Part shown: positions 961 to 46,504 of the stretch, piece by piece | Position numbering within the stretch: position 1 is the stretch's first letter | How the letters are laid out: the number at the start of each line of letters is the position of its first letter | Source: Cepaea nemoralis | Lineage: Eukaryota > Mollusca > Gastropoda > Stylommatophora > Helicidae | Length of the DNA stretch: 64,000 nt | NCBI GenBank assembly: GCA_014155875.1 | Contig: JACEFZ010014453.1 | Coordinates: 209,001-273,000 of the forward strand | Direction of reading: 5' to 3' | Program-made: the position numbers and the translations under genes | The notes under the pieces: model-generated | Databases searched by the model: none | Seen by the model: the letters and a program-made list of their open reading frames with translations, nothing else | What the model was told of the DNA's origin: nothing

Positions 961-1129
961 CTGTATCAGTAGGCACGATAGCCCGTGTCTCAAATAACAG
1001 AATCTTTCATGTGGCCCAAGTATTCCTGTTCTGTCCACTTCTACATTGATGATCTGTCATCCTATTCATTCATGTTCTATCTTCTTCATTAATGTTCTAT
1101 CATCCTTTACATGCATGTTCTGTCGTGAA

Positions 1130-1239
1130 CTTCGACAGCCAGCGAAGAGCCCTATCAATTACAGTCTGATCGTCTGTCCCTCTGACCTGTCCTATGAGTA
1201 CTAATCTTAGCCCTCTTAGAACTCACGGCTCCATACTTT
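1130..1239 (+). mobile_element. Decayed 3' end of a LINE coding region (zinc-finger tail)
   Basis: This stretch aligns with the end of the LINE fragment at 34752-35234 read on its minus strand. Both carry a segment like CTTAGAACTCAC followed by GCT and ACTTTCAACCCCAC. In the 34-kb copy the segment encodes the end of a C2H2-like finger (residues resembling CPHCQRIF and IGLISHLRTH) near the end of the LINE protein. Here the finger survives only as a degenerate reading with LRTH still visible at about 1217-1228. It lies directly against the first unit of the 34-bp array and appears to be the body of the LINE copy whose terminus was expanded. Confidence 0.6.
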
Positions 1240-4200
1240 CAACCCCACATGGATGACTTGGATAGTGGACAAACAACCCCACATGGATGACATGGATAGT
1301 GGACAAACAACCCCACATGGATGACATGGATAGTGGACAAACAACCCCACATGGATGACATGGATAGTGGACAAACAACCCCACATGGATGACATGGATA
1401 GTGGACAAACAACCCCACATGGATGACATGGATAGTGGACAAACAACCCCACATGGATGACATGGATAGTGGACAAACAACCCCACATGGATAGTGGACA
1501 AACAACCCCACATGGATGACATGGATAGTGGACAAACAACCCCACATGGATGACATGGATAGTGGACAAACGAACCCCACATGGATGACAATGATAGTGG
1601 ACCAACAACCCACATGGATGACTTGGATGAGTGGACAAACAACCCCACATGGATAGTGGACAAACAACCCCACATGGATGACATGGATAGTGGACAAACA
1701 ACCCCACATGGATAGTGGACAAACAACCCCACATGGATGACTTGGATAGTGGACAAACAACCCCACATGGATAGTGGACAAACAACCCCACATGGATAGT
1801 GGACAAACAACCCCACATGGATGACATGGATAGTGGACAAACAACCCCACATGGATGACATGGATAGTGAACAAACAACCCCACATGGACATAGTGGACA
1901 AACAACCCCACATGGATGACTTGGATAGTGGACAAACAACCCCACATGGATAGTGGACAAACAACCCCACATGGATGACATGGATAGTGGACAAACAACC
2001 CCACATGGATGACATGGATAGTGGACAAACAACCCCACATGGATGACATGGATAGTGGACAAACAACCCCACATGGATGACATGGATAGTGGACAAACAA
2101 CCCCACATGGATGACATGGATAGTGGACAAACAACCCCACATGGATGACATGGATAGTGGACAAACAACCCCACATGGATGACATGGATGACATGGATAG
2201 TGGACAAACAACCCCACATGGATGACATGGATAGTGGACAACCCCACGGAATGGACAACCCACATGGATGACATGGATAGTGGACAAACAACCCCACATG
2301 GATGACATGGATAGTGGACAAACAACCCCACATGGATGACATGGATAGTGGACAAACAACCCCACATGGATGACATGGATAGTGGACAAACAACCCCACA
2401 TGGATGACATGGATAGTGGACAAACAACCCCACATGGATGACATGGATAGTGGACAAACAACCCCACATGGATGACATGGATAGTGGACAAACAACCCAC
2501 ATGGATGACATGGATAGTGGACAAACAACCCCACATGGATGACATGGATAGTGGACAAACAACCCCACATGGATGACATGGATAGTGGACAAACAACCCC
2601 ACATGGATGACATGGATAGTGGACAAACAACCCCACATGGATGACATGGATAGTGGACAAACAACCCCACATGGATGACATGGATAGTGGACAAACAACC
2701 CCACATGGATGACATGGATAGTGGACAAACAACCCCACATGGATGACATGGATAGTGGACAAACAACCCCACATGGATGACATGGATAGTGGACAAACAA
2801 CCCCACATGGATGACATGGATAGTGGACAAACAACCCACATGGATAGTGGACAAACCCCACATGGATGACATGGATAGTGGACAAACAACCCCACATGGA
2901 TGACATGGATAGTGGACAAACAACCCCACATGGATGACATGGATAGTGGACAAACAACCCCACATGGATGACATGGATAGTGGACAAACAACCCCACATG
3001 GATGACATGGATAGTGGACAACACCCCACATGGATGAACATGGATAGTGACAAACAACCCACATGGATTGACATGGATGTGGACAAACAACCCCACATGG
3101 ATGACATGGATAGTGGACAAACAACCCCACATGGATGAAATGGATAGTGGACAAACAACCCCACATGGATGACATGGATAGTGGACAAACAACCCCACAT
3201 GGATGACATGGATAGTGGACAAACAACCCCACATGGATGACATGGATAGTGGACAAACAACCCCACATGGATACATGGTAGTGGACAACAACCCCACATG
3301 GATGACATGGATAGTGGACAACAACCCCACATGGATGACATGGATAGTGGACAAACAACCCCCATGGATGACATGGATAGTGGACAAAACAACCCCCACA
3401 TGGATGACATGGATGTGGACAAACAACCCCACATGGATGACATGGAGAGTAGGACAAACAACCCCACATGATGACATGGATAGTGGACAAACAACCCCAC
3501 ATGGATGACATGGATAGTGGACAAACAACCCCACATGGATGACATGGATAGTGGACAAACAACCCCACATGGATGACATGGATAGTGGACAAACAACCCC
3601 ACATGGATGACATGGATAGTGGACAAACAACCCCACATGGATGACATGGATAGTGGACAAACAACCCCACATGGATGACATGGATAGTGGACAAACAACC
3701 CCACATGGATGACATGGATAGTGGACAAACAACCCCACATGGATGACATGGATAGTGGACAAACAACCCCACATGGATGACATGGATAGTGGACAAACAA
3801 CCCCACATGGATGACATGGATAGTGGACAAACAACCCCACATGGATGACATGGATAGTGGACAAACAACCCCACATGGATGACATGGATAGTGGACAAAC
3901 AACCCCACATGGATGACATGGATAGTGGACAAACAACCCCACATGGATGACATGGATAGTGGACAAACAACCCCACATGGATGACATGGATAGTGGACAA
4001 ACAACCCCACATGGATGACATGGATAGTGGACAAACAACCCCACATGGATGACATGGATAGTGGACAAACAACCCCACATGGATGACATGGATAGTGGAC
4101 AAACACCCCACATGGATGACATGGATAGTGGACAAACAACCCCACATGGATGACATGGATAGTGGACAAACAACCCCACATGGATGACATGGATAGTGGA

Positions 4201-5188
4201 CAAACAACCCCACATGGATGACATGGATAGTGGACAAACAACCCCACATGGATGACATGGATAGTGGACAAACAACCCCACATGGATGACATGGATAGTG
4301 GACAAACAACACCCACATGGATGACATGGATAGTGGACAAACAACCCCACATGGATGACATGGATAGTGGACAAACAACCCCACATGGATGACATGGATA
4401 GTGGACAAACAACCCCACATGGATAGTGGACAAACAACCCCACATGGATGACATGGATAGTGGACAAACAACCCCACATGGATGACATGGATAGTGGACA
4501 AACAACCCCACATGGATGACATGGATAGTGGACAAACAACCCCACATGGATGACATGGATAGTGGACAAACAACCCCACATGGATGACATGGATAGTGGA
4601 CAAACAACCCCACATGGATGACATGGATAGTGGACAAACAACCCCACATGGATGACATGGATAGATGGACCAAACAACCCACATGGAGTGACATGGATAG
4701 TGGACAAACAACCCCACATGGATGACATGGATAGTGGACAAACAACCCCACATGGATGACATGGATAGTGGACAAACAACCCACATGGATGACATGGATA
4801 GTGGACAAACAACCCCACATGGATGACATGGATAGTGGACAAACAACCCCACATGGATGACATGGATAGTGGGACAAACAACCCACATGGATGACATGGA
4901 TAGTGGACAAACAACCCCACATGGATGACATGGATAGTGGACAAACAACCCCACATGGATGACATGGATAGTGGACAAACACCCCACATGGATGACATGG
5001 ATAGTGGACAAACAACCCCACATGGATGACATGGATAGTGGACAAACAACCCCACATGGATGACAGGATAGTGGACAACAACCCCACATGGATGACATGG
5101 ATAGTGGACAAACAACCCCACATGGATGACATGGATAGTGGACAAACAACCCCACATGGATGACATGGATAGTGGACAAACAACCCCA
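1240..5188. repeat. 34-bp minisatellite, roughly 115 copies
   Basis: The unit reads CCCCACATGGATGACATGGA followed by TAGTGGACAAACAA and repeats every 34 bp with very high identity. Several units are 25 bp because a 9-bp ATGACATGG segment between short direct repeats is lost (for example near 1491, 1651 and 4427). A more divergent patch lies at about 3000-3480. On the minus strand all three frames are open for over 1300 codons because 34 leaves remainder 1 on division by 3 and the unit has no minus-strand stop. The three frames encode the same cyclic peptide, so these are not genes. Confidence 0.95.
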
Positions 5189-8100
5189 CTGGATGACATG
5201 GATGTTCATCATCATTCTTGGTGGACAAACAACCCCACTGGATGACATGGATAGTGGACAAACAACCCCACTGGATGACATGGATGTTCATCATCATTCT
5301 TGGTGGACAAACAACCCCACTGGATGACATGAATGTTCATCATCATTCTTGGTGGACAAACAACCCCACATGGATGACATGAATGTTCATCATCATTCTT
5401 GGTGGACAAACAACCCCACATGGATGACATGGATAGTGGACAAACAACCCCACATGGATGACATGGATAGTGGACAAACAACCCCACATGGATGACATGG
5501 ATAGTGGACAAACAACCCCACATGGATGACATGGATAGTGGACAAACAACCCCACATGGATGACATGGATAGTGGACAAACAACCCCACATGGATGACAT
5601 GGATAGTGGACAAACAACCCCACATGGATGACATGGATAGTGGACAAACAACCCCACTGGATGACATGAATGTTCATCATCATTCTTGGTGGACAAACAA
5701 CCCCACTGGATGACATGAATGTTCATCATCATTCTTGGTGGACAAACAACCCACTGGATGACATGGATGTTCATCATCATTCTTGGTGGACAAACAACCC
5801 CACTGGATGACATGAATGTTCATCATCATTCTTGGTGGACAAACAACCCCACTGGATGACATGAATGTTCATCATCATTCTTGTGGACAAACAACCCCAC
5901 TGGATGACATGACTGTTCATCATCATTCTTGGTGGACAAACAACCCCACTGGATGACATGGATGTTCATCATCATACTTGGTGGACAAACAACCCCACTG
6001 GATGACATGGATGTTCATACATCATTCTTGGTGGACAAACAACCCCACTGGATGACATGGATGTTCATCATCATTCTTGGTGGACAAACAACCCCACTGG
6101 ATGACATGGATGTTCATCATCATTCTTGGTGGACAAACAACCCCACTGGATGACATGGATGTTCATCATCATTCTTGGTGGACAAACAACCCCACTGGAT
6201 GACATGGATGTTCATCATCATTCTTGGTGGACAAACAACCCCACTGGATGACATGGATGTTCATCATCATTCTTGGTGGACAAACAACCCCACTGGATGA
6301 CATGAATGTTCATCATCATTCTTGGTGGACAAACAACCCCACTGGATGACATGGATGTTCATCATCATTCTTGGTGGACAACAACCCCACTGGATGACAT
6401 GAATGTTCATCATCATTCTTGGTGGACAAACAACCCCACTGGATGACATGGATGTTCATCATCATTCTTGGTGGACAAACAACCCCACTGGATGACATGG
6501 ATGTTCATCATCATTCTTGGTGGACAAACAACCCCACTGGATGACATGGATGTTCATCATCATTCTTGGTGGACAAACAACCCCACTGGATGACATGAAT
6601 GTTCATCATCATTCTTGGTGGACAAACAACCCCACTGGATGACATGGATGTTCATCATCATTCTTGGTGGACAAACAACCCCACTGGATGACATGGATGT
6701 TCATCATCATTCTTGGTGGACAAACAACCCCACTGGATGACATGAATGTTCATCATCATTCTTGGTGGACAAACAACCCCACTGGATGACATGATGTTCA
6801 TCATCATTCTTGGTGGACAAACAACCCCACTGGATGACATGAATGTTCATCATCATTCTTGGTGGACAAACAACCCCACTGGATGACATGGATGTTCATC
6901 ATCATTCTTGGTGGACAAACAACCCCACTGGATGACATGGATGTTCATCATCATTCTTGGTGGACAAACAACCCCACTGGATGACATGGATGTTCATCAT
7001 CATTCTTGGTGGACAAACAACCCCACTGGATGACATGGATGTTCATCATCATTCTTGGTGGACAAACAACCCCACTGGATGACATGGATGTTCATCATCA
7101 TTCTTGGTGGACAAACAACCCCACTGGATGACATGGATGTTCATCATCATTCTTGGTGGACAAACAACCCCACTGGATGACATGAATGTTCATCATCATT
7201 CTTGGTGGACAAACAACCCCACTGGATGACATGGAATGTTCATCATCATTCTTGGTGGACAAACAACCCCACTGGATGACATGAATGTTCATCATCATTC
7301 TTGGTGGACAAACAACCCCACTGGATGACATGAATGTTCATCATCATTCTTGGTGGACAAACAACCCCACTGGATGACATGGATGTTCATCATCATTCTT
7401 GGTGGACAAACAACCCACTGGATGACATGGATGTTCATCATCATTCTTGGTGGACAAACAACCCCACTGGATGACATGGATGTTCATCATCATTCTTGGT
7501 GGACAAACAACCCCACTGGATGACATGGATGTTCATCATCATTCTTGGTGGACAAACAACCCCACTGGATGACATGGATGTTCATCATCATTCTTGGTGG
7601 ACAAACAACCCCACTGGATGACATGGATGTTCATCATCATTCTTGGTGGACAAACAACCCCACTGGATGACATGGATGTTCATCATCATTCTTGGTGGAC
7701 AAACAACCCCACTGGATGACATGGATGTTCATCATCATTCTTGGTGGACAAACAACCCCACTGGATGACATGGATGTTCATCATCATTCTTGGTGGACAA
7801 ACAACCCCACTGGATGACATGAATGTTCATCATCATTCCTGGTGGACAAACAACCCCAGTGGATGACATGGATGTTCATCATCATTCCTGGTGGACAAAC
7901 AACCCCACTGGATGACATGGATGTTCATCATCATTCTTGGTGGACAAACAACCCCACTGGATGACATGAATGTTCATCATCATTCTTGGTGGACAAACAA
8001 CCCCACTGGATGACATGAATGTTCATCATCATTCTTGGTGGACAAACAACCCCACTGGATGACATGAAATGTTCATCATCATTCTTGGTGGACAAACAAC

Positions 8101-8249
8101 CCCACTGGATGACATGAATGTTCATCATCATTCTTGGTGGACAAACAACCCCACTGGATGACATGAATGTTCATCATCATTCTTGGTGGACAAACAACCC
8201 CACTGGATGACATGAATGTTCATCATCATTCTTGATGGACAAACAACAT
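5189..8249. repeat. 49-bp minisatellite with an island of 34-bp units
   Basis: The unit starts CCCCACTGGATGACATGGAT and continues GTTCATCATCATTCTTGGTG GACAAACAA, 49 bp in all. It differs from the 34-bp unit by about 16 extra bp and one missing A. At about 5414-5655 a run of roughly seven 34-bp units sits inside the 49-bp array, and at 5189-5410 the two types alternate. The last unit, ending near 8249, carries TTGATGG instead of TTGGTGG. That variant is shared with the single-copy LINE terminus at 34753-34801. Confidence 0.95.
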
Positions 8250-8278: not shown

Positions 8279-9284
8279 CACTCTGTCTGTGAAACTAGTA
8301 ACACAGGCTGGCAGGGTTGTCTGTGAAACTGGTAACAGGCTGAAAGAGATGTCTGTGAAACTGGTAACAGGCTGAAAGAGATGTCTGTGAAACTGGTAAC
8401 ATGGGCTGAAAGAGATGTCTGTGAAACTGGTAACATGGGCTGAAAGAAATGTCTGTGAAACTGGTAACAGGCTGAAAGAGATGTCTGTGAAACTGGTAAC
8501 AGGCTGAAAGAGATGTCTGTGAAACTGGTAACAGGCTGAAAGAGATGTCTGTGAAACTGATAACATGGGCTGAAAGAAATGTCTGTGAAACTGGTAACAG
8601 GCTGAAAGAGATGTCTGTGAAACTGGTAACAGGCTGAAAGAGATGTCTGTGAAACTGGTAACAGGCTGAAAGAGATGTCTGTGAAACTGGTAACAGGCTG
8701 AAAGAGATGTCTGTGAAACTGGTAACAGGCTTGAAAGACAGCTGAAGATGTCTGTGAAACTGGTAACAGGCTGAAAGAGATGTCTGTGAAACTGGTAACA
8801 GGCTGAAAGAGATGTCTGTGAAACTGGTAACAGGCTGAAAGAGATGTCTGTGAAACTGGTAACAGGCTGAAAGAGATGTCTGTGAAACTGGTAACAGGCT
8901 GAAAGAGATGTCTGTGAAACTGATAACATGGCTGAAAGAATGTCTGTGAAACTGGTAACAGGCTGAAAGAGATGTCTGTGAAACTGATAACATGGGCTGA
9001 AAGAGAATGTCTGTGAAACTGGTAACAGGCTGAAAGAGATGTCTGTGAAACTGGTAACAGGCTGAAAGAGATGTCTGTGAAACTGGTAACAGGCTGAAAG
9101 AGATGTCTGTGAAACTGGTAACAGGCTGAAAGAGATGTCTGTGAAACTGGTAACAGGCTGAAAGAGATGTCTGTGAAACTGGTAACAGGCTGAAAGAGAT
9201 GTCTGTGAAACTGGTAACAGGCTGAAAGAGATGTCTGTGAAACTGGTAACACAGGCTGAAAGAGATGTCTGTGAAACTGGTAAC
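8279..9284. repeat. 32-bp minisatellite, left part (about 31 copies)
   Basis: The unit reads AGGCTGAAAGAGATGTCTGT followed by GAAACTGGTAAC. A 34-bp variant has ACATGGGCTG in place of ACAGGCTG. The array stops at 9284 exactly where a long terminal repeat begins, and resumes at 17312. The minus strand is open in three frames, which explains ORFs of 219-332 codons. These are not genes. Confidence 0.95.
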
Positions 9285-9863
9285 TGTCAACAACTCAACT
9301 GACAGGCATCATCGGGTACTTCTGGCACACCATACAAGAAAACTTGCAAGTCGTGTGCGAGGAAATTAAATGGTACATTTATTGCCGTTGGCTCGCTACA
9401 AGCAGTGAACAGTCGCTATTGAAACACACAACATACAGCCACAGTATTATCTATCACGAGCTGCTACCCCTATGCTAACTTTCTACACAAATAAACACAA
9501 ATACCCCTATCGCTACTCTAACGAGGTGAAGTCCGTCCGGCCGTCTGCCAATCTTTCATTCCTTCGTCACACACCACGGGGATTGACCTTCACCTTGGTG
9601 CGTGTTGCCTCACATGGCACGCTGATGGCAGACGTGGTACGTTGAGTGTATACTCAACTTCTCTGTGGCTACCACGAGGCGTGATGTTATCGTGATTAGA
9701 GTGCTAACTCTCTGAACACCGCCTGCGTGTCTCATGAGGGAATGGTCACCCAACTCTTATTACCTCATCTCCCATTCCCTTCCCTCGGGCACCGTATCCC
9801 CTCCTGGTCTCTTCACGATTGACTGCTCTTCCTGGCGAAGGGGATGCGGTCGAGTCTTTGACA
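9285..9863 (-). repeat. 3' LTR of the gypsy element
   Basis: This is 579 bp with TG...CA ends (read on either strand) and short terminal inversions TGTCAA/TTGACA. On the element's minus strand an AATAAA is visible as TTTATT at about 9378-9383, a plausible polyadenylation signal. It lacks the 8-bp CACTACAA present in the other LTR near 16971. Confidence 0.93.
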
Positions 9864-9879
9864 CACACCCACCCCTCCT
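9864..9879 (-). other. Polypurine tract of the gypsy element
   Basis: Read on the minus strand, the bases just before the 3' LTR are AGGAGGGGTGGGTG, a pure purine/T-poor run. This is where plus-strand DNA priming is expected. Confidence 0.75.
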
Positions 9880-12792
9880 GTGTTGCGTCATCAACTTTCA
9901 CTCATTGGTTGTGACGCAAGAGGTTCTAAAAAATTAGTGTCTCTAATTTTTGTCAAAGACTCTAGGTAACCTGGTTTTGGGTAAAGTAATAGACTTCTAC
10001 TGACTATTGTCACAATGTAGCAAAACTGTACGTGGCTACTGGCAATCGCCACAAACTTGACTGGGTGGCGTGAGCCCTCTTCTCACATGCCATATTATAT
10101 TATTAGAGGTATGTCTGAACCGGACCGTTGTCTTATAAGACCTGCCCTCACATAGTAAATTAACTTACTACCCATACAAAGTTGACTTTCTTAGGGTCAA
10201 CACATGAATTGCTTCATGTCCCCCATATAATATTTAACAACCATTATACAAGAGTGTGTGCGACAGGCTTTACCTACATCGCTTCCGCGTGTAAAGTTCT
10301 ATTACACTGTTAAGATAGTTCTTCGTTGTCTATTATGTCCCCTGACCCGAAGTTATCTCCCTTTTATGTACAAAAAGTGTATGTAATTTATATGTTTGTT
10401 TTTCTGGTTGTTTGCGTGTTTGGATGTAACTAACTTACTAATTTAACTTCTAAACTATGTTTCTAAGTCCTATGTGTAGGTATGTTAGTTTTTTAAGTGT
10501 CACAATTTGGTTAAATGCGGCCACAAACAGGTATAACACTAATTCGTGCCTACATTCCCTTGTTATGACACTCAAAATACTGTAATCTAAGTTCTAAACT
10601 ATTACCGACATACATTCACACTTCGACATTTTTACTAACGAAAACCAACAGTAACACAGACAAATATTAAATTTCGAACCCGGCAGCAGAAGAATTCGCT
10701 GACCAATCTCACTCTCTTCCATCTATTTTCCATTCGCTCTCACTTTCACACTTCTGTCACACTGCTTTCACCCTTAATTCTGTCACACATCTATTATCCT
10801 TCCACACTAATTCTGCTGATTATTTAAAAACCTTGGAGTGACACTGTACAGGTTTAGCTCAGTTTGAGATGGTTGAGCCTCATGACGGCGCGAAAGTTGT
10901 TGCACGAGTCATGTATTTACAATATATTTACATGGATGAGAAAGGGTTGATGGTTTGTCCCCTTGGTCTCATCATCCACTATATTACACTACCATAGCAC
11001 TCTACATTCTAACCTACTAATCCTACTTCTATAAATAACTATATAATGTGTTAACTAAATTTTTGTCATGTTAATTATATGATATGTTTATGTTAATCGT
11101 TATGTTTATCTAATCTAAGGGAAGTAATTTAACTATTTAAATGTAATGGATGTGATGTGAGTTATGTACCTTAATTACATGGATGATGTGTACACAAATT
11201 ATGTAATTTTCTAAATACTATGCTAAATAATGTTTTTGCATGTATGAGTGATGTTCTTAATCTAAATGGTGTAAATGATGTATGTTCACTTATCTACTCT
11301 TTTTAACCTACTCTGATGTAAAATGATGATACTAATAAATGGTAATGTTTAATAGATGGTATGGTTTCACGAAGATGGAATAAACTAAACTAAACTGAAG
11401 GTAAATGAAATGTAATAATCTAAATGGTACTATTCTTATCATAATTTTATTTTAGCTTGTAATTAACTATTGTCATATCTAAACTAATATTTTAAGTTAC
11501 AATTACTGTAATAACTATTCTATTAAAATAAATGAGAACTATTATATTTCCCTAACCTACATTTATTTTGTCATTATATTAAAATATTATATTACATATC
11601 ACATTAAGTTTATATACATGTTATTCAGTTTCCACAGGTTAGTAGTTGCCTTCATGTTTGTACATTGCTTGTATAGGCATAATATATGTACACACTTTGC
11701 CTGGGTATCTGAAATACTTTGCACAGTCATCATAATGTTCTATCGGTAGTGCACGTGTAGAGTTCGCTGGTGTCGTAGCTCAGCCTTTTCGTGTCTGTAA
11801 TTAAGCACTGTTCTGACACTGTTTTCTGCGTTTCACACCAATGGTACACCGGAATGGAGCTTAGTTGGTAATTATCTGTCCTTGTTCACACGGTGATATT
11901 TACGTTCTGCAGCACAGTTCTTGACTTAATGTCTACGGACACATGATAGTTCACTGTTCTTGGTACATGATTCAGCATATACTGTCGATCTATATGTACC
12001 CTATTTTACATAGAATATTATAATGTATTCATGTACTAACTATCACTCTACATTTATATGTGGGATTTCAGGTATTTCTACCCCAGATGGTAAAATTAGT
12101 GACCACCTGTATATCCGGTCATTTTGATGCACACCACTATGTATGACCGTGATTGGGGAGTTGTCGGTCTGGACAATTCAGTGAACATCTGTCAGAACTC
12201 GATGGAGCTTTCTCACCGTATAGATGACGCTTAGGGTTGCAACTGTGATATGGAATCTCTGGACTCAGCAGGTGTGATCTTACGGCTCACGTAGCAACTC
12301 GGGTGGAAGATGCCCTCAAAAAATTGGCCTAGTACTGCTGGCATCTGTCCTAGAATAATAAACGAGCCTAGGATTAGGCAAGCGGAGGATTGGAATATTT
12401 ATAAAAAAGAATTTTCAATTTTGACAATGCAGACATTAATAATGCATCTTTCACATTTCATTTCCAGAAGATTTTAAGACATTGGAAAATATAATTGTAA
12501 TTTCTGAGTAATTTACTAATCGTAAAAGGCTTCTGACCTGCTTCTATGTGGTAGGCATGGTCAGATTCATAAATTTTTTTTTTTTTTTTTTAATGATTGT
12601 CAGTTTTAACTTGACATGGCCTTGTCAGATGACACCAAGAGATGTAAGATGACATGATCGAAAAAATTAAATTTTTTTGAGGCCTATTTCCACTTTGCTT
12701 GGTTTGACAGTGAGACCGAAGAGTCGCACTCTGTCAAAGGCATGTCTCAGTTTTAGTAAGTGTATTGTCCAGTCATCAATATTCTGATATAT
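9880..12792 (-). other. 2.9-kb non-coding internal region of the gypsy element
   Basis: This stretch between the end of pol and the polypurine tract is AT-rich and has no credible ORF on either strand. An 18-T run lies at about 12574-12591. I see no envelope-like reading and no tandem array. It may be decayed 3' coding sequence or captured foreign DNA. Confidence 0.6.
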
Positions 12793-13150
12793 TCATGTGT
12801 ATTCTGTCAGTTCACTAAATGTATGCCCCTCGTCGGATTTGCCAGTCTCGCTAACTAGTGTAGTTGCGCTCTGTATGTCTGTCGTCTGATCACTAGGTGT
12901 TGGTGCACTCTGTTCGTCTGTCACTACTTCTGTCTCTTGTCTTGAAAAGTGAGGTTTTCGCATGTTGACATGGAATATCTCTAAGTGTCTGTTTATCGAC
13001 ATTCCATCGTCAACATGTACCATGGTTATGTACCACCTTGAATGGTCCTTGCCATTTCGTTTGTATGGAAGTAGCCTAAATCTGTCTTGATCAAGTTCAA
13101 GATCACTTGTTTTCGCACCTTTGTTTGTGTGCTTGTGGTAGAACTGACCC
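12793..13150 (-). pseudogene. Integrase C-terminal (GPY/F) segment, frameshifted
   Basis: At 13032-13054 the minus strand encodes WQGPFKVV, the hallmark GPY/F motif of Ty3/gypsy integrases. It is preceded in another frame by an LLPYK segment. A third frame then gives VDDGMSINRHLEIFHVNMRK, matching the usual end of such integrases, where an H(I/V)NML-like motif precedes the stop. The continuous ORF at 12793-13023 ends in a low-complexity Thr/Ser/Glu tail. At least two frameshifts separate the pieces, so no functional C-terminal domain is encoded. Some of these could be assembly indels. Confidence 0.75.
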
Positions 13151-14429
13151 TTCCTCTATCAAATGGCTTGGGTGCCAGTGTAGAGGGTTGTACTTCAGCT
13201 GTAGGATGTCCACCCTTAAACTTTCGTACTAATTGTTGACAGACATTACAAGCAAATACATTATGACAAAATAATTTTATATTATTGAAAAAACCTGGCC
13301 TGTTATTGTTGTATGCCAGATGACCAGCACACGGTGTTTTATGTGCATTCTTTAGCACAGTTAAACGGTGTTGTTCAGGTAACACCTGTTCATGGTTACC
13401 TGTAGTATGACATCTAGTTGAAATGCCATTCTTCAATCTAGAGAACACTGATGTATGTTTGGTGATTTTGGCTCTTTGTTTCATTAAGTTTAAATATGGA
13501 GACACATTAAGATCAGATTTCTGCTGGTGTATCAATTTCTGTGTGTTTGTGTCATCTGTGCTGGTTGGAAAAAGCATCAGTAGTGTCTCATCTTGTAATG
13601 GGTCATGATGTTTTGAAGTGTCAACTCTGGTTGTTGCCTTAGCTGCATTTAATTTCTCCCATGCAACTATTTCATCACTAGTACATTGTTTCAGTTGGGG
13701 TAAGCACCCCAAAATTAAATCAGTACAAGGGTTGTCAAGTATTGCACAAGTAAAGGTACCTGAAAGAAAAGGAGTATTAATGTGGGCTTTAGCCAAAGGG
13801 TAGATCTCAACGTTACCCGAAAAGGTTCGGCATTTCACAGTGTCACCTGTGTAATCACCCGGACTCACTAGTTCTTTTCGAAGACCAATAAGGGTGCTGC
13901 CACTATCCAGCAAACATTGGCATGGTATATTATTGACCATTGCATTGTGGAACACCAAATTGCCTCTGGAGGCTAGTGCTGCATTTACACTCTCGGATGA
14001 GCATGGTACTGTATGTCCACACTCCAGCTTTCCGTCTGCATGGAACTGATGACATCGTTCACAGCTGTCAAAGCTTAACATATCGTTTGCACCACACACA
14101 TCCTCAGCTTGGTTGAAAGGCAAGTCAACCTCATCTTCATTTTCAACCTCACACTCATCCTCACTACCACTATCTGAAGAGGTGTCAATCAAAATAGCAT
14201 TGTTAGCTTTCATACGTTGGCGGCCAAGGCACTTATTAGAATAATGGCCATAGCAGGAACAAAAAAAAACATTTGATTGCCCGCCTGTATGCCGATCTTT
14301 TATTTTGCTGCTTCTTGATAACATTTTCAAGATGCGCCGGATAGTTCGGCGATTTGTCGCACATAGAATAAGTGTCATGCATCTGTTGACAATAAATACA
14401 TTTTGACACTTTTCTGTCTTTCTTGTCAT
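13026..14429 (-). pseudogene. Gag zinc knuckle - protease - integrase H2C2 fusion frame
   Basis: This is an open frame of 467 codons. Near residues 57-67 lies CSCYGHYSNKC, the second half of a CCHC zinc knuckle whose first cysteine sits in the neighbouring frame across a T-run at about 14261-14269. Residues 173-179 (LLDSGST) are the aspartic protease active site, and the domain ends near DLILG at 237-241. About 100 residues later comes an integrase zinc-binding domain (His363, His370, Cys394, Cys397). The roughly 700 residues of reverse transcriptase and RNase H normally found between are absent. After LAPKPF (residues 418-423) the integrase catalytic core is also absent. The two deletions leave one open frame, so a truncated protein could be made. 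The first 50 residues are probably out-of-frame sequence over the real gag. Confidence 0.8.
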
Positions 14430-14960
14430 ATTTCTGAAAAGGTTTTCTGTTGCTCTGATAATTTTTGGGTTGGTCTTTCACAAAGGAAACTATTTCAGAG
14501 TCACTTGATGTCTTAAAAATCTCTCTGTTAGAAGAAAAATATGCTGAGCCTTTTTTTTCGAACTGCTCGATGTTCTCAATGTCTGACTGCTGCAAAAACT
14601 TAGCAAAAGGAGAAGGTATAGTAGATATAACCTTGTCCATAGCTATTAGGTTTTTTAATCTATCAAAGTCTTTACCTATGTTAGCTGCTTTAAGCCACCT
14701 GTTTAGTACACTCTGCACATTTGAAAAATAATCTATAAAAGTTTCACTAGGCTTAGGTCTTAAATTTGAGAACTGAACCATACCCAGGGGCATCAAGTAA
14801 AAAGTGCTGCATAATCCTATCATGGATGTATTGATAGCTAGATCTAAGTTCAATAGGAATAGACTCTATTACTTTAAGGGGCTCACCACTTAGATTCTTC
14901 ATGTAAATAGGAGCCCACATATCTAAAGGAACTTGGTGATATTTAAATTGATACTCTACA
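14236..14960 (-). pseudogene. Gag capsid region and first zinc finger, frameshifted
   Basis: The frame ending at 14236 contains a capsid-like segment (SETFIDYF followed by about 60 helical residues), a basic linker and a first zinc finger CIYCQQMHDTYSMC. The N-terminal capsid portion (residues like QVPLDMWAPIYMKNLSGEPL) is readable in a second frame at about 14775-14975. Gag is therefore broken by shifts near 14965 and 14765, and again at the T-run near 14265. The two tandem fingers CX2CX3HX5C and CX2CX4HX4C would bind genomic RNA in an intact Gag. Confidence 0.75.
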
Positions 14961-15513
14961 TTCTCTGTCCAGGCTGATATGGAATCTTCTTTGCAAATGG
15001 TTTGATAATATTTTTGTATTTGTTGAACTTATTTTCCTCTTGTTGACTTTTTAGTTTAGTGGCAGAGATCTCTGCGTGTGAGTCTACATCCATGCCTTTC
15101 ATCTTCAATTGTGTCTCTGATTCTACTTGAATTTGTTTTTCCTTAATATCTATTTCTTTTTGCTTTAGTTCTCTTTCTTGCTCTAGTTGCCTTTGCTTCA
15201 GTTCTAATTCCTTTTGTTTTATTTCTTTCTCTTGATCTAATTGCTTTTGTTTCATCTCCTTATCATGTTCTAACTGTTGTTGTTTAACTGTCTTATCATG
15301 TTCTAACTGTTGTTGTTTAACCTCTAGTTCTTTTTGCTTATTTATTTCAGCTAGTTCTTTCTGATGTTGTCTTTCTTGTTCCCTTTCTCGTGCGCGTTCG
15401 TCCCTCTCTGCATCCTTTGCTTCTTTAAATTTCCTATCAGCATATTCCTCTAAGTCCTTTCCTGTATATTGTAAATCTTTACCTGCTTTTATAAAGTCAG
15501 ATAAGGTCGCCAT
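14956..15513 (-). CDS. Gag N-terminal coiled-coil segment
   Basis: This is a 185-codon frame starting MATLSDFIKAGKDLQYTGKD. It is followed by a long charged segment rich in Glu, Lys and Gln (residues about 40-140), with heptad-like repeats such as KQQQLEHDK. It is the start of the gypsy Gag polyprotein. The ATG at 15513 is the first in frame after a 1.2-kb leader from the primer-binding site. The stop at 14956 is caused by a frameshift, since capsid-like sequence continues directly in another frame. The coiled-coil probably contributes to Gag multimerisation (inference). Confidence 0.75.
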   Translation of the reverse strand: MATLSDFIKAGKDLQYTGKDLEEYADRKFKEAKDAERDERAREREQERQHQKELAEINKQKELEVKQQQLEHDKTVKQQQLEHDKEMKQKQLDQEKEIKQKELELKQRQLEQERELKQKEIDIKEKQIQVESETQLKMKGMDVDSHAEISATKLKSQQEENKFNKYKNIIKPFAKKIPYQPGQRM

Positions 15514-16696
15514 GCTGTTAAGTAATTAGCTACTGTTGACTTACCCTGCTTTGTTTATTTACCTATTTATCTACAATGTTATCTATTTGTTCCTCGTTAA
15601 GGAATATTAATTTTATTTCCAGTTTATGTGTTGCACAAAATTCTATGTTGGAATATCAGAGCACAAAAAATATGATACTGTATCACAAGCTGAAAAAGAG
15701 ATGCACTATTAATCACAATGCATGCCAAAAATATAGGTATACTCAACTTAATGTTCCCGAGAATCAGGGAACGTAAGCTCCGTTGACACCGGTCACCTTA
15801 TTTGGTACCTTCGGGAGGAGACACGTTTCGTAAGTAGGACACTATATTTGGCACACCGGCGTATGTACTCAGTTGTTGCTCGCCCTCTGATATGCAGGGC
15901 AGTAGTAAACACATCTACTGCACGATATGATTTACTCGACAACTAAGGACAATGACTTAGACAATGACAGACTCACGAACAACTAGAATATGTATTAATT
16001 AAATTTAATGTCAATGTCCTGTCTTTGTTCTAACAGTAATTGCCTTTCATTACTAACCTAGTTAATTTCTGTTAGCGTTGTGCAGCCAAGCCTCATCTGC
16101 TCGGCAACAAAAATAGTTCCATCGTGACGGTAAACAAAGAGAAAGTAGAACCAAAAATATGAATAACTGCTTTTAAATGAATACAAATAACATAATAATG
16201 TTTAAATAAATAAATATATTCATTTAGTAATTGAAATCAATAAATAATAAACGATATAAAGCACAGATTCAGGCGGGCAGCCGTTAAACGATCTTGTACA
16301 CACTCGATTGCTTTATGCTAATGACGCAGACCAACTGTTTGTCAATCACTCCACGTCACAGCGTTATTTACAGCACAGTGCTATTTTTAGTTTCCAAAAA
16401 TCGATATTGTCGGCTGGCGGTGTATCGCTCCGCCCTGAATCATGTTTGGTGCTTATTCAAGAATAAATTGGTAAATACATAAATAAATATAAGAAAACAA
16501 GAATATTAATACTTACAGCTTTGCAGAATACATGATTTCACTAAATACACACAATTAAACACTATATTTCGTCACGATAGGCATATTTCTAGCCCGCAAA
16601 TTGCACTCGTTTGCACAAATTACCGTCACTACAAAAATTAAACCCTAGTCCAGAGCCCGTGGATGAGTGGATTAGCTTGAACTTACGTTCAAGCTT

Positions 16697-16710
16697 CACT
16701 TCTGACACCA
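16697..16710 (-). other. Primer-binding site for tRNA-Leu
   Basis: On the plus strand the bases are CACTTCTGACACCA, identical to the 3' end of animal tRNA-Leu including CCA. Read on the element strand this is TGGTGTCAGAAGTG, lying 14 nt inside the 5' LTR. It fixes the element's orientation as minus. Confidence 0.88.
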
Positions 16711-16724
16711 CAATTACCCTTGCC

Positions 16725-17311
16725 TGTCAACAACTCAACTGACAGGCATCATCGGGTACTTCTGGCACACCATACAAGAAAACTTGCAAGTCGTGTGCGA
16801 GGAAATTAAATGGTACATTTATTGCCGTTGGCTCGCTACAAGCAGTGAACAGTCGCTATTGAAACACACAACATACAGCCACAGTATTATCTATCACGAG
16901 CTGCTACCCCTATGCTAACTTTCTACACAAATAAACACAAATACCCCTATCGCTACTCTAACGAGGTGAACACTACAAGTCCGTCCGGCCGTCTGCCAAT
17001 CTTTCATTCCTTCGTCACACACCACGGGGATTGACCTTCACCTTGGTGCGTGTTGCCTCACATGGCACGCTGATGGCAGACGTGGTACGTTGAGTGTATA
17101 CTCAACTTCTCTGTGGCTACCACGAGGCGTGATGTTATCGTGATTAGAGTGCTAACTCTCTGAACACCGCCTGCGTGTCTCATGAGGGAATGGTCACCCA
17201 ACTCTTATTACCTCATCTCCCATTCCCTTCCCTCGGGCACCGTATCCCCTCCTGGTCTCTTCACGATTGACTGCTCTTCCTGGCGAAGGGGATGCGGTCG
17301 AGTCTTTGACA
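16725..17311 (-). repeat. 5' LTR of the gypsy element
   Basis: This is 587 bp, matching the 9285 copy along its full length apart from the 8-bp insertion at about 16971-16978. The 3' flank GTAAC at 17312-17316 completes the target duplication. Confidence 0.93.
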
Positions 17312-17838
17312 GTAACACAGGCTGAAAGAGATGTCTGTGAAACTGGTAACAGGCTGAAAGAGATGTCTGTGAAACTGGTAACAGGCTGAAAGAGATGTCT
17401 GTGAAACTGGTAACAGACTGAAAGAGATGTCTGTGAAACTGGTAACAGGCTGAAAGAGATGTCTGTGAAACTGGTAACAGGCTGAAAGAGATGTCTGTGA
17501 AACGTAACACAGGCTGAAAGAGATGTCTGTGAAACTGGTAACAGGCTGAAAGAGATGTCTGTGAAACTGATAACATGGGCTGAAAGAGATGTCTGTGAAA
17601 CTGGTAACAGGCTGAAAGAGATGTCTGTGAAACTGGTAACAGGCTGAAAGAGATGTCTGTGAAACTGGTAACAGGCTGAAAGAGATGTCTGTGAAACGTA
17701 ACACAGACTGAAAGAGATATTTGTGAAACTGGTAACACAGACTGAAAGAGATGTCTGTGAAACTGGTAACAGGCTGAAAGAGATGTCTGTGAAACTGGTA
17801 ACAGGCTGAAAGAGATGTCTGTGAAACTGGTAACATCG
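17312..17838. repeat. 32-bp minisatellite, right part (about 16 copies)
   Basis: This is the same unit as at 8279-9284. The first unit continues the one cut at 9284 once a single GTAAC is removed, giving GGTAACACAGGCTG. That variant also occurs at 9246-9259. The array was therefore continuous before the LTR element inserted. Confidence 0.95.
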
Positions 17839-18325: not shown

Positions 18326-19447
18326 TATGTAAATAACTTAAATAATAACATATGTCAGTAACTGAAACAATAACAAAAACATGTGTCAGTAACTGAAACA
18401 ATAACAAAAACATTTGTCAGTAAATGAAACAATAACAAAAACATATGTCAGTAACTGAAACAATAACAAAAACATATGTCAGTAACTGAAACAATAACAA
18501 AAACATATGTCAGTAACTGAAACAATAACAAAAACATATGTCAGTAACTGAAACAATAACAAAAACATATGTCAGTAACTGAAACAATAACAAAAACATA
18601 TGTCAGTAACTGAAACAATAACAAAAACATATGTCAGTAACTGAAACAATAACAAAAACATATGTCAGTAACTGAAACAATAACAAAAACATATGTCAGT
18701 AACTGAAACAATAACAAAAACATATGTCAGTAACTGAAACAATAACAAAAACATATGTCAGTAACTGAAACAATAACAAAAACATATGTCAGTAACTGAA
18801 ACAATAACAAAAACATATGTCAGTAACTGAAACAATAACAAAAACATATGTCAGTAACTGAAACAATAACAAAAACATATGTCAGTAACTGAAACAATAA
18901 CAAAAACATATGTCAGTAACTGAAACAATAACAAAAACATATGTCAGTAACTGAAACAATAACAAAAACATATGTCAGTAACTGAAACAATAACAAAAAC
19001 ATATGTCAGTAACTGAAACAATAACAAAAACATATGTCAGTAACTGAAACAATAACAAAAACATATGTCAGTAACTGAAACAATAACAAAAACATATGTC
19101 AGTAACTGAAACAATAACAAAAACATATGTCAGTAACTGAAACAATAACAAAAACATATGTCAGTAACTGAAACAATAACAAAAACATATGTCAGTAACT
19201 GAAACAATAACAAAAACATATGTCAGTAACTGAACAATAACAAAACATATGTCAGTACTGAAACAATAACAAAAAACATATGTCAGTAACTGAAACAATA
19301 ACAAAAACATATGTCAGTAACTGAAACAATAACAAAAACATATGTCAGTAACTGAAACAATAACAAAAACATATGTCAGTAACTGAAACAATAACAAAAA
19401 CATATGTCAGTAACTGAAACAATAACAAAAACATATGTCAGTAATAT
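18326..19447. repeat. 31-bp minisatellite, about 36 copies
   Basis: The unit reads ACATATGTCAGTAACTGAAA followed by CAATAACAAAA, with nearly perfect identity through the middle and mild decay at both ends. A few unit copies also occur beyond the inserted LINE tail at 20257-20338. Confidence 0.95.
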
Positions 19448-20256
19448 TTTTTTCCGCGTGCTCACTTTGAACCCAAGCGTAGTCCAAACACACTACTTCT
19501 AGTAGTGCTGGACTGAATTTTGCGTGTGGATTAGCTTTCCCTATTAACAGTGTCCCTCACCATCAGGCGAACCCACTCTGATTTCAGAGGTACTTGTAAT
19601 TTACGTCCCCAAGTCAAGGACGACAGGTCAACATTTTAGTCCAACTGTCCGGTGTAGGAGTTGAACCTTTTACCTCGGCATCAGCACACCGGTTGTTTAA
19701 GAACACGCATTCTTATCCATTTGGCCATGCTGACATCCAACCATCCATCATGTGCCATGCGGGTAAGCGTGAGCGGTCATGTTTTGCCATCTCACTCGAT
19801 CACCAGAGTCGTGGATCAGCTCCGTGTTCCTGTCTACTTCTCGGCCTTCCCCTTGGTCTCTTCCCTTCGATCTTGCCAGTTGTCACCAAGTTTTCCAATT
19901 CATTTCTTCTCATAACATGCCCAAAAATTTTGACTATCTATGTCTAATGTCTCTAATCAGTTTACGATCTTCATTTGTCTCTTGAAGGACTTGTTCATTA
20001 GTTTTTCTGTCTGTCCATGGTATTCTTTGCATTTTCCTCAGACACCACATTTCCACAGCCATCAGATGTGTTTCAGCTTGACTGCTTATTGTCCACGCTT
20101 CACATCCATACAAAAGTACAGGTTCTATGTAGCACTCCAACACTCTTTTTCTCGTTTCAATTGATATCTTTTTATTGGTCAGTATGTTTTTCATCTTGAA
20201 AAAGGCTACCTTCGCAATGGCAATTCTTGTTCTAATCTCTTCAAGGCATAACCTAC
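19448..20256 (-). mobile_element. 5'-truncated LINE 3' end inserted in the 31-bp array
   Basis: The minus strand encodes the C-terminal part of an RTE-like RT protein (RCLEEIRTRIAIAKVAF, then PVLLYGCEAWTISSQAE and LRKMQRIPWTDRKTNEQV). It is nearly identical to the end of the LINE at 39870-42600 and shows a frameshift near 19934. The 3' end is an A-rich run near 19448. The array resumes at about 20257. The flanks GTCAGTAA and GTCACTAA may be an 8-bp target duplication with one mismatch, or simply array units. Confidence 0.8.
19645..19734 (-). repeat. tRNA-like sequence (SINE head) in the LINE tail
   Basis: The minus strand starts GTCAGCATGGCCAAATGG, which resembles the A-box of class II (Ser/Leu-type) tRNAs. 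Positions 19657-19667 read GGTTCAACTCC, a good B-box. The length (about 90 bp) and a long variable arm suit a Ser/Leu-type tRNA origin, but pairing is imperfect. It follows directly on the LINE stop codon and GATGGATGG. It is probably a tRNA-derived SINE or a composite LINE/SINE tail, not a functional tRNA. Confidence 0.6.
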
Positions 20257-20338
20257 ACGTCACTAACTGAAACAATAACAAAAACATGTCAGTAAATGAA
20301 ACAATAACAAAAACATATAGCAATAACTGAAACAATAC
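20257..20338. repeat. Residual 31-bp minisatellite units
   Basis: Two to three diverged units of ACTGAAACAATAACAAAAAC type lie on the far side of the LINE tail insertion. Confidence 0.85.
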
Positions 20339-34351: not shown

Positions 34352-34599
34352 AGTTTAGATATTGCAGGAAATAACCGGTCGCCCTAGCATTGCCTGTTTG
34401 CTAGGGAAAAGGCAAGGGATGTCCCGCAGGAGTCCATAAGCCTGGTGCCGCCCCGCACGCCTGCCAGACGTCCAACGTTCATGACCAGCTTACCCGTGGC
34501 CATCCAGTTCCTCAGTATGCTGGTCCACGCTTGGAGATAAGGCTATAGAGTTGACACGAGACAGTACAAGTTCTAGCTCTTAGTTGAGAAATTGGTTCT

Positions 34600-34744
34600 G
34601 ATGATAGTTGCCCTGCAGTTACGGACAGAAACGTTAACAATATTACTGTCTACATTCTATGTTCTGGTTGTTCCACAGCCAGCATGAGGCCTTTTCGGCT
34701 GCCTCACCGAGTTGTTTTTGTGCCCGAGTTCTTGCTTGTCCTTC
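34600..34744 (-). pseudogene. PD-(D/E)XK-like ORF, C-terminal part
   Basis: The minus strand gives GIEGQARTRAQKQLGEAAEK then ASCWLWNNQN. It continues the reading broken at 35242 by the LINE insertion. I recognise this ending (LGI, then a basic helix, then EAAEKAS.WLW) from a repeat-associated family common in animal genomes. The family's parent element is not known to me with certainty. The sequence beyond about 34600 is not readable. Confidence 0.6.
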
Positions 34745-34751
34745 GATGCCT

Positions 34752-35234
34752 GTTGTTTGTCCATCAAGAATAATGATGACCATTCATTTCATCCAGTGGG
34801 GTTGAAAGTGTGCAGCTGTGAGTTCTAAGATGGCTGATAAGGCCTATTTTGGCTTAAAATATTCTTTGACAATGTGGACAAAGAATGCTTGTGTTTCAAG
34901 GAGGAGGATCTCCTGCAGTGGTTTTTCTGTCCAGCCTCTTCTTTACAGCTCTTGCAGTCCTGGTTGCTTCACAAGTGACTGCACCCTTGTGTAATGATGT
35001 ACGCCACGAATTTCAGTCATTGGCAGCAGACTTCCAGATGTCAAGATGAATTCCAAAAGCTTTCAGTGAGATTTTCAGAGTGTCTTTAAAGCGTTTCCTC
35101 TGGCTGCCTTGAGAGCATTTACCACAACGCAGCTCACCATAAAAAATTTGTTTAGGGAGCCTGAGATCTGGCATGCGAGTTAAGTGACCTGCCCAGCGAA
35201 TCTGATTTTTCATTAGTAGTGTGTGGATACTTTT
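34752..35234 (-). mobile_element. LINE E: 483-bp 5'-truncated insertion with zinc-finger tail and target duplication
   Basis: The insertion is flanked by AGGCATC (GATGCCT on the plus strand) at 34745-34751 and 35235-35241. The minus strand encodes a LINE C-terminus (NQIRWAGHLTRMPDLRLPKQ then GSQRKRFKDTLKISLKAFGI). A C2H2-like finger with a stop inside follows (CPHCQRIF, stop, AKIGLISHLRTH). The last 49 bp (34753-34801) align without a gap to the 49-bp satellite unit at 5189-8249, with about four differences. This defines that unit as the 3' terminus of this LINE family. Confidence 0.88.
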
Positions 35235-35241
35235 GATGCCT

Positions 35242-35660
35242 AACTGTTGTAGCACATCATACACAGAGTGGCAGATTAGACCTCTTGCATCTATCTCTAT
35301 GGCGAATAGTTTCTGATAGCGTACCCTTCCTGTCTCAAACTTGCAACTATCTCTATGCCAAATAGTTACTGATAGCGTACCCTTCCAGTCTCAAGCTTGC
35401 AACTGTGTCACTGTACTTCTCTATCTTGTACGTGTGCTGCTCCTCGATTCTATACTCATATGGAACAGTCAGCTTAAACAGCGTTAGCTGCTTAGCCAAT
35501 GAAGAGTGAAGTACAATGTCAGGTCGCACTCGAAACTGTTAGAACACTGTCTGGTAAGAACCAAGGCCCTTCACGTCAACAGTCAGTTCCCAGTCATCCA
35601 CGTCATTGAAAATGAATGGTAAGTCAGCAGCGCAATCTTCCTTGTCTCTACGTTGCTACC
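35242..35660 (-). pseudogene. PD-(D/E)XK-like ORF, N-terminal part
   Basis: On the minus strand one frame reads QFRVRPDIVLHSS, then QLTLFKLTVPYEYRIEEQ and KIEKYSDTV. Another segment, IEIDARGLICHSVYDVLQQL, ends at the LINE insertion. PD and the usual ELTVPWE motif (here KLTVPYE) resemble a PD-(D/E)XK nuclease core. Upstream FNDVDDWELTVDV is also readable. A 60-bp tandem duplication at about 35287-35405 and several stops show the copy is dead. Confidence 0.6.
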
Positions 35661-35783
35661 CGGCTCTGGCGAAGTAAATCCACATCAGCCTCGCTCTGGC
35701 CCCTCTGTTTGCTCGCATTATGGCTTTATCCACTATGGCTGCCAGCGCTTTGTTCATATTAAATTATATAAATGACACAATCA

Positions 35784-36445
35784 TTAACCCTTCACAGGGC
35801 AGAAATTTGACCGTTTTCTAGTCCTGAACGGGCAAGATATTTGAGCTTCGGTAAAATTTCGGTTATGTTAGTAAAAACATCATGTATAAGGTGTTAACCA
35901 ACAGATTTTAGTAAAATAAAAAACAAAATGAAGGAAAAAGCAAGCAGATTATTTTACTCACGTGAATGTTGCCGGTAATCCACACATGAACACAAATATT
36001 TACAAAATACAACATATTGTTTGTGATTGTCAGTCATTTATACAGCAATTTAGAAACACATTTTCATAATCATAATCACTTTCTTTAAAGTCTGACTCAC
36101 GATTGCTAACACTGATATCTAGCTCTGATTAATAGTCAACTTCGTGCCCTTCAATGTCACTTAAATTGAACCCAGCGAAATCTCTGCTATCACTTGAAGA
36201 ATCATCAAATTCCATTTTAAAGTACAAAGTGTAAAACCCCCAAAAACTAAAAAAAAAATCCGTTCAAATTCAAAGTTAACGCTTGCAAATGGCGGCCACG
36301 TTGTCAAGCTATCAGCGAAACAGAAAGTAGACAATCGGAAGCTTCGAACGCGTTTTTACAATGCTTAGTATTCACAGGCATTTTCGGACGTTTAGTCCAT
36401 TAACGGTAAAGCCGCGTTCGGATGCTACGCTCGGTAAAGGGTTAA
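35784..36445 (-). mobile_element. piggyBac-type MITE, copy 1 (654 bp plus TTAA duplication)
   Basis: TTAA at 35784-35787 and 36442-36445 flanks termini reading CCCTTCACAGGGCA (left) and CCCTTTACCGAGCG (right, inverted). The minus strand from about 36216 encodes an acidic start MEFDDSSSDSRDFAGFNLSD, typical of the N-terminus of piggyBac transposases, followed by stops. No DDD catalytic domain is present. It is homologous over its length to the element at 38815. Confidence 0.85.
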
Positions 36446-38814: not shown

Positions 38815-39511
38815 TTAACCCTTTACAGGGCAGACACTTGTCCGTTTTTTAGCCCTGAACGGGCAAGATTTTTTCAGGTTCGGTAAAATTTCGGGTCGCG
38901 TTAGTAAAAACATCACAAATAAGGTGTTAGTCAACCGATTTTAGTTAAATAAACAACACAATGAAGGGAAAAGCATGCAAAATATATTACTCATGTGATT
39001 GTTGTCGGTAATCCATATATGAACACAAATATTTACGAAATACAGCATATTGTTTGTGATTTTCCGTCATCTATACGGCAATTTACAAACACATTTTCAG
39101 AATTATAATCACTTTCTTTAAAGTCCGACTCAGACTGCTAATGCAAAGTAACGCTTTGCACTGATATCTAGCTCCAATTAATAGTCAACTTCGTGCCCTT
39201 TAATGTCATTTAAATTGAACCTAGCGAAATCTCGGCTATCACTTGAAGAATCGCCGAAATCCATTTTGAAAAACTAAGCGTAAAAATCCCGAAAACTATC
39301 AAAAAAAAGTCCGTAAAAGTCAGTTCAAATTCGTAGTAGGAGCTTACAAATGGCGGCCACGTTGTCAAGCTATCGGCGAAAGCAGCCGTCGGAAATGTCG
39401 GAAAGGATAGAGATCGCGTTTTTACAATGCATAATAGTATCGGGCGCGTTCGGCCGATCTGCTCGTTAAGTGATCGGCCGCAAATTGACGTTTTGCCCTG
39501 TAAAGGGTTAA
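38815..39511 (-). mobile_element. piggyBac-type MITE, copy 2 (689 bp plus TTAA duplication)
   Basis: TTAA at 38815-38818 and 39508-39511 flanks perfect 14-bp inverted ends CCCTTTACAGGGCA. An acidic start MDFGDSSSDSRDFARFNLND is readable on the minus strand from about 39264 and soon hits stops. The 101-codon ORF at 39210-39515 is in another frame and is not the transposase. It shares most of its length with copy 1. Confidence 0.9.
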
Positions 39512-46069: not shown

Positions 46070-46500
46070 AACAGATAATAATAAATAATTAATATCTGAG
46101 ATATGAGATAAACAATCAATTTATTTAAAGTAGACATGAATAGTCACAGTTTATGTGAATGATGTTAATAATAATATTTTAAAAGTAAACCTATCAAATT
46201 TTCTACATGTTATGAATACATTACTTCTCTGGACTCCCTCTCGTCACTATGATTGCTCAAGAACTGAAGGAAACTAAGAAAACAGAAACAAACCAAAGCA
46301 GGGCAGAGCTGAGAACATGACATCACAGAGATCTGATTCAAGTCTCACAGTGAATTATAAGAGAAGATGTTTGTTCACATGAAATAATCAAATCCTGCAA
46401 TTTCAACACAGAAGTGACATTTAGCCAGTTAGAAGATCAGACAGCTGTTGTTGTCATGACAACGTACTTTAGTCTCATCTCATCTTGTTCCTCTTGTACC
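46070..46500. other. AT-rich intergenic stretch
   Basis: About 430 bp with no ORF, repeat or transposon signature recognised. Confidence 0.5.
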
Positions 46501-46504
46501 TTGC

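Follow-up and report, generated by a model that had tools for sequence, protein, structure and literature searches.

The window analyzed here is a 64,000-nucleotide stretch of the gastropod Cepaea nemoralis (assembly GCA_014155875.1, contig JACEFZ010014453.1, positions 209,001 to 273,000 of the forward strand). Near its left end it holds a minisatellite array whose unit is homologous to the 3′ terminus of a long interspersed nuclear element (LINE), and further along, on the minus strand, it holds a truncated copy of that LINE, termed LINE E. Segmentation divides the array into 184 tandem units at 1238–8248. A first-pass annotation of the window had proposed that the array and its flank represent a single LINE copy whose terminus was amplified more than 100-fold. 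The comparisons described below confirm this proposal, with corrections: the block at 1209–8248 is the 3′ end of a LINE copy, in the favored reading one severely 5′-truncated insertion with its tail amplified in place. Judged from sequence, the tail of this LINE appears to seed minisatellites repeatedly, in many separate insertions.

The terminus itself is defined by LINE E, a 5′-truncated, single-unit copy at 34752–35234 (minus strand). It is bounded by two copies of the 7-bp target duplication AGGCATC, the 3′ copy at 34745–34751 and the 5′ copy at 35235–35241 of the same strand. The joined flanks restore the continuous frame ..VYDVLQQLGIEGQARTRAQKQLGEAAEKASCWLW of another element, and the duplication is taken as real because this host frame closes without the insert; LINE E thus ends in a true terminus, as first annotated. 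Its terminal 49-bp block, the homologue of the array unit, lies at 34752–34800 (minus strand) and includes the final part of the LINE frame (..LDEMNGHHYS stop) plus 12 bp beyond. The host of LINE E is another coding element at 34500–35750 of the minus strand (..VPYEYRIEEQHTYKIEKYSD.. / ..AAEKASCWLW), and a sequence just upstream on the minus strand (35783–36000) recurs at 38815–39033.

Searches of the 3.47-Gb assembly (26,579 contigs) extend this terminus to the family. With LINE E as the query, the best 40 of 7,222 first-look candidates were scored; LINE E is 91–93% identical to the 39 other copies, the matches to which start at query position 11 or 13 and end at 483–495 of 497. These 39 other loci contain 40 copies (L032 includes a second, very short copy), which are those nearest LINE E rather than a random sample and are 95.9–98.9% identical to the LINE consensus. 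In all 40, the 3′ end falls at GGACAAACAACA or at most 8 nt short of it, and a fuzzy count finds one unit in 39 copies and none in L038, whose end still aligns. A 58-bp terminus pattern with up to three mismatches matches the genome 17,587 times, a count that includes duplicated contigs, versus 0 times for the reversed control. These data support the annotated claim that the LINE family ends with the 49-bp motif.

The LINE frame stops 12–13 bp before the 3′ terminus ..TTGATGGACAAACAACA. The longer copy L051 contains an RVT_1 domain (E = 1.7e-35), and a Pfam search of the LINE E fragment gave no match. Protein relatives with E up to 0.001 number 3,967 among 7,963 scored candidates and include metazoan records such as those of Branchiostoma and Nucella; exact tail patterns gave no matches in viral contigs or prokaryote genome contigs. 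Extra ACA or CAACA repeats follow ..ACAAACAACA in L010, L012, L014, L015, L024, L027, and L042, and resemble the tail slippage of other LINEs.

The window array is built of two unit types. Fifty-seven of the 184 units are long (~49 bp), as annotated at first pass, and the 127 others are shorter, comprising 117 of ~34 bp and 10 of less than 30 bp. Tandem Repeats Finder (TRF) accordingly reports a 34-bp period at 1240–5203 and 5402–5668 and a 49-bp period at 5254–5431 and 5640–8247. Combined with the segmentation, these periods define three blocks on the plus strand: a left block at 1238–5178 (units 0–118) of short units of ~34 bp, some of 25 bp; a transition block at 5179–5646 (units 119–130) in which long and short units are mixed; and a right block at 5647–8248 of 53 consecutive long units reaching the LINE 3′ terminus. 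Compared with the 49-mer, the 34-mer lacks the TTCATCATCATTCTTG part and has gained one A (CACATGG). The short units of the array are deletion derivatives of the 49-bp unit. The 33-bp unit at 5228 reads CACTGG, carrying the deletion without the extra A, and is apparently a step from the 49-mer toward the CACATGG 34-mer. CTTGG is found in 53 of the 57 long units. TTGATGG, the variant of LINE E, is found in one, namely the last unit (8193–8248, plus strand), which the first-pass annotation had singled out for this feature and which, aligned to the LINE consensus, keeps the ancestral TTGATGG and ends at GGACAAACAACA. It is well supported that the 34-bp derivative took over the left part of the array and that the outermost 3′ unit retained ancestral bases.

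LINE homology is present on both edges of the array. On the right, LINE E and the last unit are identical at 57 of 63 positions in an ungapped alignment (E = 2e-20, small subject set), and across 40 core positions the majority 49-bp unit shows 4 differences from the genomic LINE consensus, in agreement with the annotated match between the unit and the last 49 bp of LINE E. On the left, the flank AGCCCTCTTAGAACTCACGGCTCCATACTTTCAACCCCAC matches the LINE immediately before its final 49 bp (43/48 to LINE E), and 36 bp at 1209–1244 are 97% identical to several other LINE copies. Relative to the LINE consensus, the left flank aligns up to the start of the final 49 bp and the last unit aligns through the final base. 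This flank match is as originally described, but the LINE start placed at 1130 is rejected: detectable homology begins at ~1201–1209, and the residual 5′ part of the truncated copy, which adjoins the first unit at 1209–1239 (plus strand), comprises only ~30 bp. The DNA upstream (963–1215) has one full-length occurrence in the genome and ten weak partial matches that end by ~1202. These dispersed matches (70–84%) correspond to window positions 1097–1202, just left of the LINE start, and may mark an old repeat that the LINE piece lies in or beside.

Arrays of the same kind recur elsewhere in the genome. A search with the last window units gave 264 matches, in the window and at least 30 other contigs (best 39 of 1,189 candidates scored). 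Thirty array contigs were read, 17 with flanks and 13 by the left edge only. The first-pass annotation had raised the contrary case of a 49-mer satellite far from any LINE; the LINE body is found directly 5′ of the array in 28 of the 30 contigs (16/17 with flanks, 12/13 by left edge). On C12228, the array lacks a LINE body and lies between the copies of a 9-bp target duplication; on C20149, the 87-bp unit itself reaches upstream, so that a 5′ LINE body cannot be told apart. Common flanks reduce the 30 contigs to 24 distinct insertions, 22 with the LINE body directly 5′; the merging of C26532 with C10374 is based on sequence consisting largely of LINE body. The body starts at many different positions among these loci, and the arrays that were read span 3 to 184 units, the largest being ~7–8 kb. 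A pattern combining body and junction, with up to three mismatches, occurs at 115 places versus 0 in the control. Among the matches listed, 33 loci, two sister pairs included, were read as unambiguous body junctions in the 49-bp register; the other listed places are inner units, ACA-repeat single tails, or uncertain cases. Read from the same listed matches, 16 of the 33 loci are on contigs outside the first list. Arrays are thus present in at least 24 other distinct insertions, and a single accident is rejected.

Some of these arrays appear to lie, body included, between target duplications. Sixteen array loci were tried, of which 10 were testable (5 have LINE sequence beyond the 559-bp model and 1 is at a contig end). 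In five of the 10, duplications of 9–12 bp with at most one mismatch surround body plus array: C1616 (10/10), C12228 (9/9), C24725 (9/10), C24668 (10/11), and C15781 (11/12). When 5′ flanks were paired with non-matching 3′ flanks as a control, 2 of 90 pairs scored equally well. C12060, the sister of C24725, has ATTGTACCCA on both sides.

The boundaries of the unit coincide with a short direct repeat. The final 49 bp of the LINE are bracketed by CAAC tetramers (CTTT-CAAC-CCCACTGG..GGACAAA-CAAC-A), and tail-to-head joining at CAAC reproduces the unit–unit junction exactly. This main junction, GGACAAA-CAAC-CCCAC (point variants counted), is observed in 19 of 25 distinct insertions, the window included. 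Other registers, identified in part with a BLAST-based unit finder, have units of 41 bp (C9347), 53–54 bp (C2193 and C23932), 78 bp (C19489 and C13359), and 87 bp (C20149). Several of the arrays with non-49 registers also hold 49-bp units, the C1616 array mixes 49-bp units with units of 50 and 52 bp, and the first junction of the sister copy C3945 is 45 bp. The 54-bp register corresponds to an ACA/CAACA-extended tail joined at its next CAAC. Throughout the units read, the 3′ edge is constant at the CA-rich LINE terminus, the 5′ edge varies (41–87 bp), and no host flank is present within units. The bracketing repeat is 4 bp in the main register, and the overlaps elsewhere are 2–3 bp as judged by eye. 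Intact LINE tails spaced 84, 170, and 243 bp are seen at C453:26318–26629 and C507:180478–180778, a spacing that suggests further registers with longer units.

Amplification is strongly biased toward the terminus. With a trimer of the terminal 49-mer, 240 matches were obtained (best 39 of 177 candidates), and those listed cover 140–147 of the 147 bases on 31 contigs including the window. In contrast, trimers of two internal LINE 49-mers gave two-unit matches in 2/40 at 82% and 0/40 beyond 56 bp (best of 167 and 225 candidates). This difference indicates a strong bias rather than an absence, as very common words were skipped and only the best candidates were scored. The LINE consensus contains 104 pairs of identical 4-mers spaced 41–87 bp apart, and the last 14 nt take part in only one of them. 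With nearly all pairs internal, chance slippage would mostly hit the interior, and the terminus does not stand out by its short direct repeats alone.

Growth, shrinkage, and homogenization of the arrays in DNA after insertion are well supported. C24725 and C12060 represent one insertion (5′ flank 95.2% identical over 333 bp; 3′ side 96.7% over 307 bp, ~69 of them array), yet the former has 3 units and the latter ~8 kb of units, a difference in unit number as in a variable-number tandem repeat, which could be between alleles or duplicated loci. The C12060 units form two blocks, at 46,464–47,394 and from 53,437 to ~60,368. A single 14-kb array is ruled out by three samples of 141 bp, taken at 48.5, 50.0, and 52.0 kb in the middle of that span and all non-array DNA, which indicate that ~6 kb of other DNA (~47.4–53.4 kb) splits the array. 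In 15 of 17 loci (exceptions C2193 and C4012), units are closer to those of their own locus than to those of other loci, and none of 200 label shuffles reached the pooled within-locus value.

The reading favored here, and considered probable, is that arrays are seeded when the 3′ end of the RNA is copied again in the course of target-primed reverse transcription, and then grow and homogenize in DNA. Target-primed reverse transcription would copy ~40–90 nt from the 3′ end of the LINE RNA, the new cDNA end would re-pair by 2–4 bp with the CA-rich tail of the same or another RNA molecule, and the terminal block would be copied anew to give a dimer or short array; after insertion, this tail array would expand and homogenize in DNA. 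Seeding near the RNA 3′ end is favored because 3′ edges are anchored, 5′ edges are variable, internal arrays are scarce, and C12228 is nearly body-free. A stronger form, in which the LINE reverse transcriptase reiterates the RNA 3′ end, sometimes many times before insertion is completed, is entertained only tentatively. If it were correct, C12228 (26 tail units, almost no body, and a 9-bp target duplication) would have arisen directly in this way, and LINE integration itself would make minisatellites. The alternative that competes most directly, possible although clearly less probable than re-copying of RNA, places seeding in DNA as well, through slippage or unequal exchange between the CAAC repeats that bracket the last 49 bp, followed by expansion, a Haber–Louis scheme described in a review (PMC6947457). 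The unit length equals the CAAC–CAAC distance, CAAC or its point variant forms the main junction in most insertions, and the fixation of variants throughout the units of some loci, together with the single-unit E-like copies, leaves room for this scheme. The flanking direct repeats in the review are 5–10 bp, longer than the 4 bp or 2–3 bp found here. The 4-mer pairs are almost all internal, yet the two internal segments lack comparable arrays; the 41-, 54-, 78-, and 87-bp registers shift only the 5′ edge, whereas generic slippage predicts no fixed 3′ edge; and the C12228 array, bounded by its target duplication, has just 3 nt of LINE before its first unit.

Several observations weigh against re-copying at insertion. 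No tandem junction is present within 600 bp past the terminus in any of the 40 E-like copies, so that any reiteration at insertion must be rare; a search for multi-unit copies, suggested at first pass, yielded 24 other distinct insertions with arrays and none among the copies nearest LINE E. The 33 body-junction loci amount to ~0.2% of the 17,587 tails, a lower bound across registers. A clear target duplication is missing in five of the 10 testable array loci, and the search around the window block gave none exceeding 4 bp, for which reason the 5′ edge of the window insertion is not proven. The 3′ anchoring may be partly a matter of ascertainment, as the search query held the terminus and 13 contigs were read at the left edge only. 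Unit divergence is lower than body divergence (5–13%) in 14 of 15 loci (exception C2193), and variants that are absent from the LINE consensus are fixed in every unit (three in C24668, two in the window, and one each in C8621, C24725, and C26532); both fit late duplication or homogenization as well as they fit seeding at insertion. Because choosing arrays by similarity to the query lowers unit divergence, this divergence is not taken as a measure of age. A strong hairpin at the RNA 3′ end is unsupported: relative to shuffled sequences, folding of the terminal 57 nt shows no improvement (z 0.05), and that of 94 nt only a slight one (z −0.87).

The remaining explanations are far less probable. 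Spread of arrays by retrotransposition from a few master LINE copies with multimeric tails would account for the register near 54 bp common to C2193 and C23932 and the 78-bp register common to C19489 and C13359, but it is unlikely, as registers and unit variants are mostly locus-specific and the 40 E-like copies have no second unit. That the array, or its length, is an artefact of assembly seems very improbable: the short units are rich in single-base indels such as noisy reads would give, and the length of a 7–8-kb array is uncertain in any assembly, but short arrays of 3–8 units are found with other DNA on both sides on many contigs, and the window array is ordered into distinct left, mixed, and right blocks. 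Least probable of all is an independent 49-bp satellite that supplied the 3′ end of the LINE. LINEs can acquire new 3′ ends, but the LINE frame runs into the unit and stops there, single tails exceed body-junction loci by hundreds to one, and the arrays lie within LINE insertions; on these grounds this origin is rejected.

The window is rich in other minisatellites, with ~18 arrays covering roughly 28 of 64 kb by a hand sum from TRF; the largest, at 48595–57598, has a 38-bp unit. A 32-bp minisatellite (8284–9284 and 17317–17835) is split by an element at 9285–17316 that has 100% identical direct repeats (9284–9404/16724–16844 and 17197–17311/9749–9863) and looks like a long terminal repeat (LTR) retrotransposon; minus-strand frames between these repeats resemble gag/pol. 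Part of a different LINE, with a reverse-strand frame at ~19937–20250, interrupts a 31-bp minisatellite (18347–19444 and 20255–20337), indicating that elements also land inside arrays here. Comparison of the other window minisatellites, by their junctions only, with the window and the fetched loci gave no second case of a LINE-terminus array.

The conversion of transposons into tandem repeats is known from other systems. According to a study of human transposon-derived minisatellites (Ahmed and Liang 2012, PMC3389668), the established mechanisms may account for how only 6% of them began. Similar to the arrays described here, a piece of a transposon serves as the unit, growth is by local duplication, and a few percent are ascribed to short flanking direct repeats. 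The human cases involve many source elements and, where the mechanism is not known, mostly consist of two units, whereas here one family amplifies its 3′ terminus repeatedly, keeping the 3′ edge constant and reaching 184 units. The Ogre LTR retrotransposons of Lathyrus (PMC7004042) likewise have short arrays near the retroelement 3′ end that seed satellites and expand after insertion, but there an LTR element owns tandem repeats in its 3′ untranslated region (3′UTR), and here the element is a LINE whose usual copies are single-unit. Satellites derived from LINE 3′ ends (the common cetacean satellite from the L1 3′UTR and chicken HinfI from CR1, listed in PMC9659126) share the step from LINE 3′ terminus to tandem repeat; contrasted by description, they are named lineage satellites, whereas here tens of seedings in several registers are found in one genome. 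Rex3-type LINE tails (PMC6274825) also show tandem repetition at the LINE 3′ terminus, and the copies here similarly vary in ACA/CAACA, but the Rex3-type repeats are of a few base pairs and native to the element, in contrast to the 41–87-bp units found here in a small minority of copies. A limited search of the open-access literature yielded no description of terminus-anchored, multi-register tail arrays of one LINE family, and such recurrent seeding at the terminus by a single family would be new.

The origins of minisatellites are poorly resolved, and the ~17,600 tails and tens of tail arrays of this LINE family constitute a repeated natural experiment, with a common start sequence, known insertion boundaries, a known ancestral state, and several registers. 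With population long reads, whether such an array is seeded at insertion or later becomes directly testable.

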